This document shows positions 19,531 through 54,700 of a stretch of DNA of 64,000 bases, in pieces. The translations under genes were made by a program, and so were the position numbers. Every line of letters starts with the position of its first letter. The first letter of the stretch is position 1. The DNA is from Nautilus pompilius (Eukaryota; Mollusca; Cephalopoda; Nautilida; Nautilidae): contig JACATO010002453.1 of assembly GCA_018389105.1 (NCBI GenBank), forward strand, positions 111,067-175,066, read 5' to 3'. The notes beneath the pieces were generated by a model, which saw only the letters and a list, made by a program, of their open reading frames with translations, did no database searches and was not told the DNA's origin.

Positions 19531-19735
19531 GAAGGAGAGAGAGGAGAGAGAGAGAGGAGAGAGAAGAGAGGAGAGAGAGAGATGACGTCATTACAGAGAG
19601 ACGACGTCAGTAGAGAGAGTTGGAGAGAGAGAGAGAGATGGAGAGAGATGGAGAGAGAGAGAGAGAGATAGAGAGAGAGAGATGACGTCATTACAGAGAG
19701 ACGACGTCAGTAGAGAGAGTTGGAGAGAGAGAGAG
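19531..19735. repeat. GA minisatellite with TGACGTCA cores
   Basis: Two tandem copies about 100 bp apart of a unit with TGACGTCATTACAGAGAGAC followed by GACGTCAGTAGAGAG. The copies start at about 19582 and 19682 and are embedded in GA runs. Each copy has one full TGACGTCA and one CGACGTCA variant. It belongs to the same family as the arrays at 38.4, 39.9 and 58.9 kb. Confidence 0.92.
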
Positions 19736-35130: not shown

Positions 35131-36661
35131 CTGTTAATTCAGTGAAACTTTAAACTCCGCTCTGATTGATGGCAACATGGCTTCCGCCGCACCGAACGAA
35201 CCGTTGCTGTAACTCGAGACAAAGTCGATAATTAAACCGGAGTAACTTGAACATCCACGCCATTGGCAAGAAAAAGAGTTTCCAGTCTCCTGAGGAAAAC
35301 AAAAAGCACTCCAAAATCCTCGGTTGTGAGAGAGTCTTAAGTACACTATCAAATCACAGACGTTATTATTATTATTTTCTTAATGTGACTGAAATATAGG
35401 GGCCAGGTACATTCTATCACAATAATACATTCAGAGTTGTAGATAGCAGCATATTTCTTAAAGATGTCGCATCCTATAAACGAAATCTTTCGCATTTTGC
35501 TTCATTAAAAACTTACAAGGAGGCAAAGGAATCCGTCGAGTCAATGAACAGTTAGTTTCTGAACCGATTTCATGGTCTTAAGCAGTTTCGTGGCGCATAA
35601 GCTGATATTTTCTACAGGGAGAATACGGGAGTTTAATTGTGTTTTAGAACTAACCTAAATTCTTGCCGGACAGGCAACTAACTATTCTACTACAAACTGA
35701 GGCTTACGATTTATTTTATTTCTGTTTCGGTCTCTCCTGGCAGGAAGGAGATTAAAATATATATATATATATGACGAGATGGAAAAAATTTAAGAAATGA
35801 GCTTAAGGCATCGTTTTACTGGTGCACCAGAAATGGCCTTGTATTTCAATTGTTAGAGTTTGGCCAGTGAGATAGAACATTGAAAAGAGAAGTAGGAGAA
35901 AGGCTGAGTGGGGAGGAAGTGGTAGAAATAAAAAACCAGGAATCTTCTAGCAGATCAAAAGAATGGGCGGCTGGGACATTGTGTGAAGGTCTGGTTTCGG
36001 TTCTCGCTTGGATATGACTCAGTTTGGCGATCTGCAGTTCTTCTCGCTTTTCCTTAACAGTTAGTCCCGGCTGAGTGACTTTTCTCCTGGAGACTCCGGT
36101 TTCTTCTCACAGATAAACGCAAGATTTCTAGTAAGGATTTTCTGTGTTCTTGCGGTGGAGGGTCCCGCCGATAACTCTCGACTGGCTTGGGCTTGACCAT
36201 TACCGCTGAAAAGCTCTCAACCTTACCCAGGTAACATGTTTTGGTCACCAAAGCTGATGCCGTCGGTGCCCGTCCAGACTATCTTTTGTGAGATATCTTC
36301 AAGACCTTGGTCAGCAGTTCACAGAGTCTTAGCAAATGGTCTCCGGCTTATTTGATTAACTCCTAACGTCCAGGGTTTCTGGTTCTGCAGCAGAGTTTGG
36401 ACTGAGACGTTAAAGCTTTGATTCCAAGTTGCCATCAGTCACCGATATAACCTCTTTCTGATTGTTTACTAATTTGATTTATATCTGCTTCTTTGCTGTT
36501 TAAGTTTCATTTCAGCTGCTGGTTAACTGGAAATTGTTTGATCGATTCAGCTATAACAATTTTTCGAAATGCGAGCTGCTGCTTGGACACGTCTTCTTTC
36601 TCTTCCTCTTCCTCTTACCAAATTATTATGAGTTGGTTGAAAACGAGGCTAAGAGTTTGTG
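35131..36661. other. Gene-free stretch
   Basis: A TA run lies at about 35757-35771. The minus-strand frame at 36054-36251 is Lys/Arg/Pro-rich with an internal donor-like GGTAAGG but is unrecognised. Nothing firm was found. Confidence 0.5.
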
Positions 36662-36823
36662 TGAGAGAGAGAGACAAAGAGATGGAGAGAGAGAGAGAGA
36701 TAGATGATGATGATGATGATGATGATGTCAGTACAGAGAGAGGTGATGTTACTACAGAGAGAGAGAGAGAGATGATGATGATGATGATGATGATGTCAGT
36801 ACAGAGAGAGGTGATGTTACTAC

Positions 36824-36856
<33 letters not shown>

Positions 36857-36937
36857 GAGAGAGAGAGATGGTGATGGAGAGAAGAGATAGAGATGGAGGG
36901 AGAGACTGAGAGAGGAGAGAGAGAGAGAGAGAGAGAC
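36662..36937. repeat. GA minisatellite with (GAT)n and degenerate CRE units
   Basis: Two tandem units of about 75 bp. Each has (GAT)7, then GTCAGTACAGAGAGAGGTGA, then TGTTACTACAGAGAG and a GA run. The unit has the same layout as the 58.9-kb array, but the TGACGTCA has decayed to GATGTCA/TGATGTTA, consistent with C-to-T loss at CpG. Confidence 0.9.
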
Positions 36938-38391: not shown

Positions 38392-38946
38392 TCTCTCTCT
38401 CTCTCTCAATGAAATGACGTCATCCCTCTCTGTAATAATAACACCATCTCTCTCTCTCCATCTCTCTCTCTCCATCTCCTCTCTCTCTCTCTCTCTCTCT
38501 CTCAATGAAAGGACGTCATCCCTCTCTGTAATAATAACACCATCTCTCTCCATCTCTCTCTCTCTCTTCAATGAAATGACGTCATCCCTCTCTGTAATAA
38601 TAACACCATCTCTCTCCATCTCTCTCTCTCTCTCTCTCAATGAAATGACGTCATCCCTCTCTGTAATAATAACACCATCTCTCTCCATCTCTCTCTCTCT
38701 CTCTCAATGAAATGACGTCATCCCTCTCTGTAATAATAACACCATCTCTCTCTCTCTCGCTCTCTCTCTCTCTCAATGAAATGACGTCATCCCTCTCTGT
38801 AATAATAACACCATCTCTCTCCATCTCTCTCTCTCTCTCAATGAAATGACGTCATCCCTCTCTGTAATAATAACACCATCTCTCTCCATCTCTCTCTCTC
38901 TCTCAATGAAATGACGTCATATCTCTCTGTACTAACGCCATCTCTC

Positions 38947-38977
<31 letters not shown>

Positions 38978-39109
38978 TTCTATGAAATGACGTCATCCCT
39001 CTCTGTAATAATAACACCATCTCTCTCCATCTCCTCTCTCTCTCTCAATGAAATGACGTCATCCCTCTCTGTAATAACACCATCTCTCTCTCTCTCCATC
39101 ATCTCTCTC

Positions 39110-39157
<48 letters not shown>

Positions 39158-39306
39158 CTTCTCTCTCTCTCTCTCTCTCTCTATGAAATGACGTCATCCC
39201 TCTCTGTAATAATAACACCATCTCTCTCCATCTCTCTCTCTCTCTCAATGAAATGACGTCATATCTCTCTGTACTAACGCCATCTCTCTCTCTCTCTCTC
39301 TCTCTC

Positions 39307-39342
<36 letters not shown>

Positions 39343-39376
39343 ATGAAATGACGTCATCCCTCTCTGTATAATAACA

Positions 39377-39414
<38 letters not shown>

Positions 39415-39525
39415 GAAATGACGTCATCCCTCTCTGTAATAATAACACCATCTCTCTCCATCTCTCTCTCTCTCAATGAAATGACGTCATCCCTCTCTGT
39501 AATAACACCATCTCTCTCTCTCTCC

Positions 39526-39561
<36 letters not shown>
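38392..39561. repeat. Large TGACGTCA/CT minisatellite, 15 units
   Basis: Tandem units, mostly about 60-85 bp, each consist of CAATGAAATGACGTCATCCC, then TCTCTGTAATAATAACACCA, then a variable-length (CT)n tract with CCATCTCT blocks. I count 15 cores. Fourteen carry a perfect TGACGTCA and one (near 38512) has GGACGTCA. Two variant cores (near 38905 and 39252) read GACGTCATATCTCTCTGTAC followed by TAACGCC, and both are followed by a core with TTTCTATGAAATG. This indicates duplication of blocks of units. The non-CT core is far more conserved than the CT spacers. This is not a CRISPR array: the spacers are simple sequence and the DNA is eukaryotic. Confidence 0.97.
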
Positions 39562-42065: not shown

Positions 42066-43665
42066 TTTGCTATGTATATGGCAAATATATGTCTTGTAAC
42101 CAACGGAAAAACATAACCAATCAGCTCAAGATCGCATACAACCATTACTTCCGTTGCAAGATGGATGACCAAGACAAGACATGGGCACCATACATATGTT
42201 GCTCTGTTTGTACCTCCGGACTGACACAGTGGTTAAATTGGAAATGATGCCATTTGCTGTGTCAATGGTGTGGCGGGAGCCAACGAATCATCTCAATGAC
42301 TGTTACTTCTGCACGGTTAAAGTGGCTGGTTTCACCAAGAAAAACAAAAACAAGATAACATATCCTGATTGCAAGTCAGCACTAAAACCTGTGCCACGTG
42401 ATGAGGACAATCCGGTACTCGTGCCACCAGCTACTGCTGAAGTTGAAAGTGATGATGGTAGTGGTAATTCTGATAAAACTGAGCTTTACAAATCAGCAGA
42501 ATTTTAATCAGAGACACAACCTCACCTGATCAACCTGGAAGAGTTAAATGACCTTGTCAGAGACCTGGAGCTGTCTAAGCAAAAGGTAGAATTGTTTGGC
42601 TTGTGTTTGCAAGAGTGGAGCTTGTTGGCAGAACTCATGAAATTTTTTCATTTGTGTGCGCCATGCTAGTTTGGCAGCATTCTACCAGATGGAGAAAAGT
42701 GCTGCACTGATATAAGTGACCTCATGAAGCAATTAGGATATGAACACCATTCTGACAAATGGAGGTTATCCATCGATTTTAGCAAGCTTAGTCTGAAAGC
42801 CGTGTTTTACCACAATGGCAGTGAAAAGCCATCTATGCCTGTGGCACATGCTGTCAGTATGAAAGAGACGTACGAGTCCATGGAACTTCTAATGAAACTC
42901 ACCAAATATGCTGACCACAGGTGGAAACATATGCGGTGACTTAAAAGTGACAGGCCTATTGCTTGGTCTGCAGTTTGGATATACCAAACGTACGTGATTC
43001 TTGTGCTTGTGGAATAGCAGAAACGATGCAAATCACTATAAGATCAAAGAATGGGCATCAAGAACAGACCATACTCCAGGATAATTCAATGTGCAACATG
43101 TGCCACTGGTACATCTGCAAAGAATATTTCTTCCACTATTGCATATAAAGCTGGGCCTAATGAAGAGCTTTGTAAAGGCAGTGAGTGTTGAAGGTGTGGG
43201 ATTTCTTTATCTGAAAGAAAAATTTGGAGTGATTTTAACTGATGCCAAATTAAAGGCTGGAATATTTGTCGGACCACAAATTCGTGATTTATTTTCCGAT
43301 CCAGCCTTCCAGTCCAGGCTTAACCCACTGGAGCTGGCTGCATGGGAGGCTTTCAAACTGGTAGTCCACAATTTCCTTTGGAACCACAAAGCAGACAACT
43401 ATGCCGAGTTGGTTCAAGGTATGATAAGAGCCTTTGAAGAAATGGGTTGCTGTATGTCGCTGAAGTTGCATTTTCTTCATTCACACTTGGAATTGTTTCC
43501 AGCCAACCTTGGTGCTGTGAGCGATGAGCATGGAAAGAGGTTCTCTAACACATAAAGTCAATGGAGACCCACTATCAGTGGAGATTCAGCTCCAAGTTGT
43601 TGGTTTCTTCAAAGACAAACCACTGCTATTGACAAGCGTAAAATCAGGTACTTAAAGCATTTATA
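42066..43665 (+). pseudogene. Broken copy of a repetitive, uncharacterised invertebrate protein family
   Basis: The translation can be followed with interruptions over about 500 residues. An N-terminal Cys-containing segment (CYVYGKYMSCNQRK, then WAPYICCSVCTSG) is followed by a frameshift near 42240. Next come SMVWREPTNHLNDCYFCTVK, LNDLVRDLELSKQK, WRLSIDFSKLSLKAVFYHNG, CGDLKVTGLLLGLQFGYTKR, HIKLGLMKSFVKAV and LKLHFLHSHLELFPANLGAV, ending with VSDEHGKRF and a frameshifted CWFLQRQTTAIDKRK. Damage includes in-frame stops at 42505 and about 42668, a one-base shift near 42926, further shifts around 43000-43090, and a stop after KRFSNT at 43553. From memory of family resemblance, this multi-copy protein is widespread in insects, cnidarians and other invertebrates, is usually intronless, and has no assigned function. 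Its copy number and the paired Cys motifs suggest a transposon-encoded protein, but I did not find terminal repeats here. It is not functional as read. Confidence 0.75.
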
Positions 43666-51145: not shown

Positions 51146-51418
51146 GTAAGTGGACAGTTAATGCACACATTAAGGCAGACAACAGTCTGTTAAATGTCCA
51201 TATTAATAATCTAGGATTATATGACTTTTACGAACTTCCATTTGGAAACTTTTCCATTAAACTTTATACTAACCCGAGCAAATTCTTGAAACGAAATATT
51301 TTTGTCGGGGGGAGGGGTTTGGTTTAGTTATATTTTACTTTCGCTTTGTATCACACGGGTTAACGGTTCTTTCTAAACCCTCTCGGAAATTCCATGTCCT
51401 GAGTATCGAGGTCTACGG
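51146..51418. other. Spacer between candidate exon and SINE
   Basis: Nothing recognised. Confidence 0.4.
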
Positions 51419-51430
51419 ACATCTGGCAGC
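51419..51430. repeat. Left target-site duplication of SINE
   Basis: ACATCTGGCAGC, identical to 51713-51724, defines the left border of the inserted SINE. Confidence 0.9.
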
Positions 51431-51493
51431 GCCGGCCCGGTGGGGCAGGTGGTAGCGGGTTAGCTCCGTAAGGGGACCGTTGCTCCTGTACCG

Positions 51494-51504
51494 GGTTCGA
51501 TCCC
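51494..51504 (+). promoter_or_regulatory. Pol III B box of the SINE
   Basis: GGTTCGATCCC matches the B-box consensus (GGTTCGANNCC) exactly. It lies about 40-50 bp downstream of the A-box-like segment in the tRNA-like head. Confidence 0.75.
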
Positions 51505-51516
51505 AGGTTGGGGTCG

Positions 51517-51573
51517 GAGGAGAGTTGTCGCTGATGATCGCCATAGCGTGAAACAGCTGTACGACATCTCCTT
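51517..51573 (+). ncRNA. Type I hammerhead ribozyme motif within the SINE
   Basis: All conserved core positions are present in order. CUGAUGA lies at 51531-51537. Stem II is 51539-51541 paired with 51546-51548 around a CAUA loop. GAAA lies at 51550-51553. The short stem III is C-A-G/C-U-G (51554-51559), then U-A (51560-51561), which fits the N-U-H cleavage triplet as GUA. Stem I is 51526-51530 (UGUCG) with 51562-51566 (CGACA), then a two-base U-G bulge, then 51518-51523 (AGGAGA) with 51567-51572 (UCUCCU) plus a G-U pair. Predicted cleavage is between 51561 and 51562. Weak points are a U-U apposition at the base of stem II (51538/51549) and a self-complementary, loop-less stem III that could work only poorly as a monomer. 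Short stem III is a known trait of animal type I hammerheads, which can act as dimers. Confidence 0.8.
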
Positions 51574-51712
51574 GGTGTCCGTCTTGAGAGAGACCTCCCG
51601 GGTCCTTGGGTCCCACGGTGTCGGGGGACCGGGCCGTTTGTCGGCTCGACGAACATCTCTCAGTTACGAGGAGGACTCGGCATTTGGGCGTCCAACTCGC
51701 TTAACAACAACA

Positions 51713-51724
51713 ACATCTGGCAGC
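51713..51724. repeat. Right target-site duplication of SINE
   Basis: ACATCTGGCAGC, identical to 51419-51430. Confidence 0.9.
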
Positions 51725-54700
51725 AGAGAGCCGGAAGGAAGTGGGTGTGAATCAGCAAGTAGTTGCCTAGGTATGGTTGAGGGGCTCTCGAGCGGGTGGT
51801 TATGGTGCCAGCCAATCAACAAACACTTAACCGCGGAACTCCATCACATGTACCCGGAAATAACTATACTAGAACATTTTTTCTTTTTTTTTTGTTAGAT
51901 GTGGGAGGAAATCGGAATGGCTGGAGAAGCTACGCGGCCCAACAGTTGCGGATAGGTGGAGGGTGTCTCGTATTGGGGTTTCCGAGTAAGGTTAGCAAAA
52001 GGATAAATGGTAATAACCGAGAAAGAAAATCTAATGCAAATACCCGTCCACCATTTTAGTGGATAATGAAATACTGTAAAATAAAAGTTAACGGAATTTA
52101 AACGTCTTTTAATTTTATGCTAATTGAGTCTGATAAAAACTTTCGAGCGTTTAAATTTAAAATCCGGGTTTTAAAATAATGCCAGCAACAGAGGGTGGGG
52201 CGGGGGGGGGTGTTAGAAATACACCAAAAAAATTAACCAAATCGCAAATGCGAAATATTTCGCGAGATAAGTGATTTTCAAACTAACAGGTAAACGTCAC
52301 AGAGTCACGAGTTATCTGTAAGGTGTCAGGAAATGGAAGTATTAGGGAGCCGACGATGTTTTCTTTGACTAACGGAATGGATCTGTGTCGAAAACGCGGG
52401 CTTGGAATTCCCTGCCCTGTTAGCCGGTGACAAATGCCCTGGTAATTTAAAATCGCCGTCTACACATTTCCTGTCGGAAAGCGAGAAACATGACAGCGAA
52501 AGGGGAAAACAGGGATGGCAAACCTGCTGGCGAAGAGGAGGAGGAGATTTGTTTTTTTCTCTTTCTCACTCTCACTTTTCGCTTGCTAGCGATTCTGGAT
52601 TTTTTTATTGTTGTTTTTTTGTTTTTTACTTCAGCGTTTTTGGTTGCATTCTTCTTGCGATGTAAAGTAATTTTTAAAAAAAAAAAAAATAATTTAGAGC
52701 TTTATTTTCTCCCGCATCAGAGCATCCCCCCCCCTCCCAACATCAAAAAGGTTGGAAAAATTGGCAATCCATAGCCGTCACGCTTAGAAACTGGAAAAAG
52801 AATACTACGGGCTAGCGAGTTGCTTCCCGATCCATGAGCGATCTGCTCAAACGGCAGGGAGACACGAGGCTGCTCGTTCCGATCCGTCTCGCTGAGGACA
52901 TTTCTCTGTACAGAGATGACCATCGAGCGCGCCTTTAATCTACGCCGGTTTCTCGTGTCGTCACCAGCCAGAGAAAAGAGGCGAAGTTTAAATTGCCAGC
53001 TCAAAACCTTTCTCGGAAAATTTTCTCTTAAAATCGAAAGATGATTTTTCTTTGAGGTTGGATCTTCCGTTTGATGCAATCGAAGCAGGTTAATGATTTG
53101 CTCAAAACGGGTGTTTATAAAACGTGTTTTCTGTATCCATTCATTCATCATCATGAAAAATTAAAATTACGATATCCTTCTTTCACCGACGCGGGTCGGC
53201 CATATTAGATAATTTATGTACCACGCACCTGCGAAAATTCAATCACTGTCTACCCGGCATTGACGGTTGCTCTGGTGAGTGTTTTATAAATATAGTTAGG
53301 GAGTGGGGTCAGCGCCAGGTCCTGACGTGGACCTTACTGGGGCAAATATAACGGTATTACGGACCAATAATAAAAGAGATCACTGAACAATGGAGCCGTA
53401 CATTATGGAAAGGATATTCCACTCTACATCTCCACAGTAAATACAGAGGAGTTGAAAAACTGCACCAAGTTAAAAATGGTTACACATCGGTTACCGGTAA
53501 TCAACCATTATGCATGTCAAAACCCCACCATTTCTGCCACTACTATTGATTCTGCGAGAAATATCAGCATAGTGTTTTGGTGCCGTGTGTTGTTACATCT
53601 TTAAAATTTTTTACTCTCCTCCTATGGCGAGAACATCTTCGAATCCAAGCAATTGCTCACCAGCTTTCTGGTCGATTATGCTTTATTAACTGTAGTATGG
53701 GCTGTATTAGTGCTTAGTGTAATAGGTAGCTAGCTGGATATAAAGCCCTCTTTGATTTATGCTTACCTAGAAATTTAAAGAGAATGATAGCTTAATGGTC
53801 AGTCCTTCTAGACTGTTTATCCGTGCAATTTTAAACTGTTAGCAGATATCTACAAAGTACATTTCCTGGTGTAGTTTAAATAGTAACCATTTGAGTGGAT
53901 GTAATCGTATATTCTATGAAAAATACGAATGACGGAAGTATGATTTTCTGTATAAAAGAGAGTGGATAATCTTGCACTTGGAGCACACATTCTAAATAGC
54001 AGATATTATATTGGTATAAGAATGTAGTAAAACTTGTTTTCCCTGGAGAAATGTATCCTGTTAGGATCGTAAAAATGACCGATCGGATCATAGTATCCAC
54101 CATCTAGGCTGGCAAAAAGTCTTGGCAGGCCGAATACTCAGACAGTCTGGCACAAGAATGGCACGAGGCCATACGCCATGGGATTCCACGTCCTATGGTC
54201 GACACGAGTAATCAATTATTTAACGTAATTGACCCCATTAGAGTCTGCTGTATCGTTGACGTCCCGAGGAGCTGGAGACCTGAGCAGGAACAGAAAAGCT
54301 TCCGGTGGAAGATGCCAAACGTTTACATTCAGACACCTAGGTTCTCCTGCGGATGCCTTACAACCTGAATCTTGTTTCCACGTGGCGCCACCTACTGACC
54401 AGTATGGTTGTCGAAGAGATGGCTAATAAATTTGTTATCGTGCAAGTATTTGGGCTAAATAGGAAAACAGGCAATTAAAAAAGATTTTTTGAAATAAAAT
54501 GCGAAGGAACTATTTCTAAGGAAAAGTAACATTCGCAAGAGTTTTTCAGTGAAAGCGTAAAATTACGCAAATAATACAGATAAACTGAGCAAACGCTCAA
54601 ATCAGAGCTATTAGCACGAACCGAACAGCCCAGCATCACGAATAGAAGTAGTTGGATACCTTAACAAAGACCTCTCAGTATGTTCTGCACGTTATTTTGG

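Follow-up and report, generated by a model that had tools for sequence, protein, structure and literature searches.

A candidate type I hammerhead fold at the centre of a young SINE family in Nautilus pompilius

A stretch of 64,000 nucleotides of Nautilus pompilius DNA (contig JACATO010002453.1; hereafter the window) contains a full-length copy of a short interspersed element (SINE) family, designated here family A, whose centre resembles a hammerhead ribozyme. In our preferred reading, to which we assign a probability of about 0.6, this element is a young tRNA-derived SINE with a true type I hammerhead fold at its centre; head and centre would share their ancestry with those of a second family, B, and probably with those of two further families, C and D, the 3' body having been exchanged. 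The dispersed family, its target-site duplications (TSDs), the hammerhead core, the covariation of stems and the sharing of parts between families were observed directly, and both the fold and the homology are well supported by sequence comparison. An earlier note, made from the letters of the window, had proposed a hammerhead embedded in a SINE at this place; the SINE and the fold have held up, the fold mainly through relatives of the element, and self-cleavage is still only a prediction.

The element and its family

The layout of the element is given in Table 1. All of the SINE hallmarks that the earlier note had listed (B box at 51494, AAC tail and 12-bp TSD) are present, and the element belongs to a dispersed family. 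A search of the genome (727.6 Mb) with window positions 51400–51740 returned 43 matches, namely the query, 39 near full-length copies matching at 94–97% and three partial ones; this search scored the best 40 of 1247 first-look candidates, so that the near full-length copies number at least 39. The resulting family A alignment contains 37 sequences (39 copies plus the window copy, minus three duplicates). TSDs of at least 8 nt were called by the script in 30 of the 37, although among these calls the repeats of L031 and L046 are of AAC type only and possibly belong to the tail. The 3' tail of family A occurs at 225 genomic places when up to three mismatches are allowed, compared with none for the control. 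Family A is identified as a SINE by copies that are dispersed, flanked by TSDs and tailed with short repeats, and these copies indicate a young, prolific family that has recently been active.

The putatively tRNA-derived head contains a B box and resembles that of family B, but ARAGORN called no tRNA, and a loose A-box pattern had no match. By eye, insertions of family A favour CAG/CAA-rich targets (for example, the flanks of L010, L012 and L036), and the targets are sometimes the tails of older copies. Two loci, L058 and L094, are family A-like with a different 3' end (GACTCGACAGAGAACAGGCC...), and L094 has G at 10.1. Elsewhere in the window there are a tandem repeat array (38392–39561), with related pieces at 19535–19735 and 36655–36936, and a 156-codon open frame (43085–43555) with no Pfam match at E 0.01.

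Table 1. Features of the family A element, in window coordinates
Feature	Position	Strand	Basis
5' target-site duplication ACATCTGGCAGC	51419..51430	+	12-bp direct repeat
Family A SINE, full length including tail, 282 bp	51431..51712	+	genomic copies
tRNA-related head	51431..51515	+	B box; resemblance to family B head
B box GGTTCGATCCC	51494..51504	+	pattern match
Central domain with hammerhead fold (type I layout, open end at stem I)	51516..51573	+	sequence, descriptor, covariation
Stem I, 5' strand: outer GGAGGAGA, bulge GT 51524–51525 (2 nt), inner TGTCG	51516..51530	+	
Catalytic core CUGAUGA	51531..51537	+	sequence; conservation
Stem II: U-U mismatch 51538/51549, CGC 51539–51541, loop CAUA, GCG 51546–51548	51538..51549	+	
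Catalytic core GAAA	51550..51553	+	sequence
Stem III palindrome ACAGCUGU	51553..51560	+	sequence, folding
Predicted cleavage site A51561/C51562	51561..51562	+	inferred
Stem I, 3' strand CGACA + UCUCCUU	51562..51573	+	sequence
3' body	51574..51702	+	similarity to family B body within shuffles
Hot spot of truncated family A 5' ends, family position 148/149	51578..51579	+	5 loci, by eye
(AAC)n tail	51703..51712	+	sequence, copies
3' target-site duplication, ACATCTGGCAGC again	51713..51724	+	12-bp direct repeat

The hammerhead motif in the window copy and its relatives

The hammerhead core (CUGANGA, GAAA and UH) is complete in the window copy, as had been claimed, being read from the sequence as CUGAUGA, GAAA and the U-A at 51560–51561. 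Stem I, which has five inner pairs and an outer section interrupted by a 2-nt bulge on its 5' side, is also extended and bulged as described earlier. The three plausible stems of the earlier note fared less evenly: stems I and II covary among relatives, but stem II has a U-U mismatch at 10.1/11.1 beneath its three pairs, and this mismatch is found in all 37 aligned family A copies, the window copy included; stem III is an 8-nt palindrome, ACAGCUGU, which allows at most two pairs and a tetraloop within one molecule and eight pairs between two molecules. The predicted cleavage site lies at what we take to be position 17 of the hammerhead anatomy.

The motif, once seen, was turned into a descriptor that tolerates a single mismatch at the foot of stem II. 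This descriptor matched once in the window (both strands), five times across 300 Markov-simulated windows (again on both strands) and once among 20000 simulated elements (sense strand). At the gathering cut-off, Rfam gave no hammerhead match in the whole window, and at E ≤ 10 the segment 51400–51760 received two matches, neither of which is a hammerhead. At minimum energy the predicted structure is a hairpin in which CUG of the core is paired to CAG, with a z of only −1.35; in monomer folding the alternative hairpin reached −23.0 kcal/mol compared with −14.3 kcal/mol when the core was held open, and the latter structure lacks stem III. Cofolding of two copies produced an intermolecular stem III together with stem I in the dimer arrangement for one of six sequences, the family A consensus, in which stem II was shifted and took up the G and A of GAAA; the arrangement was not obtained with the other five.

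Relatives were sought with the pattern CTGATGAVN{5,30}GAAACAN{2,8}TGTA, in which V leaves out the T that the window copy has at 10.1. It matched the genome 207 times, against 21 for the reversed pattern. Among the approximately 100 matches listed, by eye about 49 look like hammerheads, about 27 like a mariner-like transposase coding class (CTGATGAAAGCTTTCTG...), and the rest like neither; since only about half are hammerhead-like, the 207 as against 21 are not all hammerheads. Thirty-three loci were parsed (13 retained from 30 excised, and 20 further ones) and labelled by script as B (24), C (four), D (one) and A (four), L084 carrying label A although it reads as B; the evidence base is thus four loci for family C and one for family D. 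Family B has a tRNA-type head, a stem II of GGGC/GUCC and a 3' body unlike that of family A; a canonical stem II is often present in it, and its tail pattern occurs at 457 genomic places (control, 0). Direct repeats of at least 11 nt, such as TGATGTGCAGATT around L068, flank 10 of the 33 loci, eight of them B, compared with 8 of 1056 mismatched flank pairs. Between families A and B, head plus hammerhead align better than all 500 shuffles, and for the 3' body 384 of 500 shuffles score as well; B and C have some body sequence in common (1/500 shuffles). The hammerhead domain is common to family A and the older family B, and probably to families C and D.

At the gathering cut-off, an Rfam search of 10 relative loci matched none. 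At E ≤ 10, hammerhead models matched 10 of 15 relatives, four below E 0.05 and none above its cut-off. One of the three loci in one set, L068, matched Hammerhead_HH9 (30.1 bits, E 2.3e-4). In the second set nine of 12 loci matched a hammerhead family at the expected place (E ≤ 10), three of them (L091, L084 and L083) below E 0.05, and the best, L091, matched the type I model RF00163 with 30.1 bits against a cut-off of 34 (E 3.4e-4). L078, L082 and L087 had no hammerhead match at E ≤ 10, and the family A-like loci tested scored poorly (L082 without a match, L094 at E 8.1). The earlier note had held that the lack of a covariance-model hit above threshold would refute its proposal, and formally such a hit is lacking, in the window copy as in the relatives tested; sub-threshold matches at the right place, together with covariation, outweigh this.

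Covariation was examined over nine pairs of stems I and II in 55 sequences, namely the 33 loci and 22 distinct family A segments. Compensatory change, for which the earlier note had proposed that genomic copies be collected, appeared as 57 double-change cells compared with 27.5 in shuffles (0/500), with 80.1% of cells paired compared with 73.3% (0/500); the shuffles ignore relatedness, and the 57 are largely one A-to-B difference counted across many copies. For the 33 loci alone there were nine double-change cells against 3.3 (0/500), and the paired fraction, 78.6% against 76.3%, was barely above shuffles (6/500). The main changes are C-G to U-A at 1.2, U-A or U-G to C-G at 1.3, and C-G to G-C at 10.2–11.2. 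Because the 33 loci were found with a pattern in which the core and some of stem III are prescribed, invariance at those positions is a product of selection by the search. A hand-picked set of 24 of 50 segments, which omitted several broken-pair segments and L027 (stem II broken on both sides), was 87.9% paired with 16 double-change cells against 5.4 in shuffles, and two further covariation measures on this set stayed within the shuffles. The relatives present three stems with the open end at stem I; I and II covary, and in most sequences III was prescribed by the search pattern.

Conservation of the core was measured in 85 copies of family A with distinct flanks, of which 55 were tail-anchored and 30 best-scored. 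All 13 core letters are intact in 77 of the 85, and non-CpG divergence is 0.8% in the core compared with 2.6% elsewhere, the non-core part of the hammerhead region standing at 4.9%, above the 2.6% of all non-core sites. Alternatives common to at least four copies occur at none of the 13 core sites and at 18 of 200 other sites, so the core bases do not vary freely, as the earlier note supposed they would if the motif were spurious. The deficit at core sites is nevertheless weak: p is 0.035 by site resampling, and it is 0.064 when the set is restricted to the 55 tail-anchored copies, 48 of them intact, with a divergence of 1.1% in the core and 2.9% elsewhere.

Self-cutting and alternative readings

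Of the 225 places, 70 tail-anchored family A loci were classified, 56 as full length, 11 as truncated and three as rearranged in other ways; L142 and L143 are duplicates, which makes the full-length count 55 of 69. None of the 11 truncated copies starts at the predicted cleavage site (family position 132), and retrocopies of a cleaved 3' fragment are therefore unsupported. By eye, five (L099, L101, L112, L132 and L153) start at 148/149, with TSDs, and two at 162. At L142/L143, L105 and L010, 3'-half units of family A, without head or hammerhead, adjoin SINE copies. Because full length is dominant and none of the 11 begins at the predicted site, the retrotransposed RNA was mostly uncut and the predicted cleaved 3' fragment is an uncommon template; self-cutting in family A is probably slow, conditional or lost.

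A life cycle consistent with the preferred reading can be outlined. RNA polymerase III would transcribe the family A SINE, a LINE enzyme would copy the mostly uncut RNA by way of the AAC tail, and the new copies would enter CAG/CAA-rich targets. With its palindromic stem III and U-U mismatch, the hammerhead may cut with low efficiency in monomeric RNA and perhaps more readily in a dimer, and a cut at A51561/C51562 would separate the head from the retrotransposable tail. A bolder version seems to us doubtful: the hammerhead would be what defines the central domain conserved across a widespread SINE superfamily, and this weak or dimer-dependent ribozyme would have been maintained by selection while 3' bodies were exchanged, limiting or timing retrotransposition of the SINE itself.

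It is possible, if on balance rather unlikely, that the ancestral SINEs had a working hammerhead of which family A, through the U-U mismatch, has lost the useful activity, the segment being kept as inheritance or as a structure that serves some other purpose, for instance LINE enzyme binding. The mismatch is present in 37 of 37 aligned copies, the window copy lacks an Rfam hammerhead match, full-length copies predominate, and cutting does not stop family A, since the family is young and prolific. Set against these points are the 77 of 85 copies with an intact core (though p is only 0.035–0.064), the absence of alternatives in at least four copies at all 13 core sites compared with 18 of 200 other sites, and a precedent for an active hammerhead with a U-U mismatch, the axolotl HHR_Amex2, in the portion of PMC7229834 drawn on here.

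We think it improbable that the domain is chiefly a barrier, with reverse transcription, or some other cut, ending where the stem I helix begins and so leaving 5' ends at 51578/51579. Five of 11 truncated copies do begin there, 17 nt past the predicted cleavage site, and by eye TCCGAC at the hot spot can pair with GTCGGA preceding stem I; but the numbers are small, and the tandem half units also begin at 149, so that a separate short source element could explain the hot spot.

An animal retrozyme, in which the motif would cut tandem transcripts into unit RNAs that then circularise, shares the class of motif and a similar size (170–400 nt), and amphibian retrozymes also have a short palindromic stem III, as described in the part of PMC7229834 used here. 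It is very unlikely for the present element, whose copies stand singly, flanked by TSDs and ending in AAC tails. Model R1, for which 24 of the present sequences (the window copy among them) served as input and which is hence no independent witness to the central domain, has one match in each of 38 loci out of 60 and two in none; tandem hammerhead units and retrozyme arrays thus found no support in these 60 loci, and the tandem units at L142/L143 and L105 repeat the 3' half without a hammerhead. Chance resemblance inside a hairpin, in whose favour are the minimum-energy fold and the silence of Rfam hammerhead models on the window, is scarcely credible, since about one in 20000 simulated elements matches the descriptor and the relatives both covary and receive Rfam matches.

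Relation to known elements

The schistosome elements Sm-alpha and Sj-alpha are SINE-like and contain a hammerhead (PMC2770079, PMC8490949, PMC4918200), and Sm-alpha is related to tRNA-Gln (PMC2770079, PMC4918200), as far as the portions of these papers drawn on here describe them. By the same descriptions, the present element is like Sm-alpha in being dispersed and SINE-like and in uniting a tRNA relation with a type I hammerhead, and differs from both in its palindromic stem III. Unlike in the schistosome elements, two families here, and probably more, with different 3' bodies have the domain in common. The suggestion that a self-cleaving SINE of this layout may be new is thus reduced by precedent (PMC2770079, PMC4918200) and stands in part: the element is a new variant rather than a new kind. 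A literature search, mainly of openly accessible papers, listed no report of several SINE families with a common hammerhead outside the schistosomes.

Minimal hammerheads of Penelope-like elements cleave as dimers. A very short stem III, like that found here, is described for such variants (PMC7229834, PMC8490949, in the parts drawn on), whereas the present motif lies inside a 282-bp element with a tRNA-related head and an AAC tail. As far as the same portion of PMC7229834 goes, helix II of the axolotl HHR_Amex2 starts with a U-U mismatch, stem III there comprises two pairs and a tetraloop, and the HHR_Amex2 repeat was 22% cut in one hour as a monomer, and more as a dimer. The window motif is like this non-LTR retrozyme hammerhead in all these structural respects and in being of type I. 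In contrast to animal retrozymes, described there as tandem and circular, it occurs in single copies with a tRNA-related head and an AAC tail. Metazoan retrozymes could themselves count as a novel SINE family, according to the part of PMC7761336 drawn on here.

Families A and B have a constant head and centre and differing 3' bodies, a layout like that of SINE superfamilies with a conserved central domain. The MetaSINE superfamily, for example, has a 66-bp Meta domain, and to our knowledge the conserved central domains of SINEs have no known function. The superfamilies so described, in the portion of PMC8010984 drawn on, are V, CORE, Deu, Nin, Ceph, Inv, Pln, Snail and Meta. In N. pompilius a SINE central domain would have a definite, testable chemistry, and it poses a measurable paradox, in that an element dependent on being copied in full harbours a motif predicted to split it in two. 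Our results suggest that these SINE families, as they evolved, retained a self-cutting motif in their RNA, or a vestige of one.
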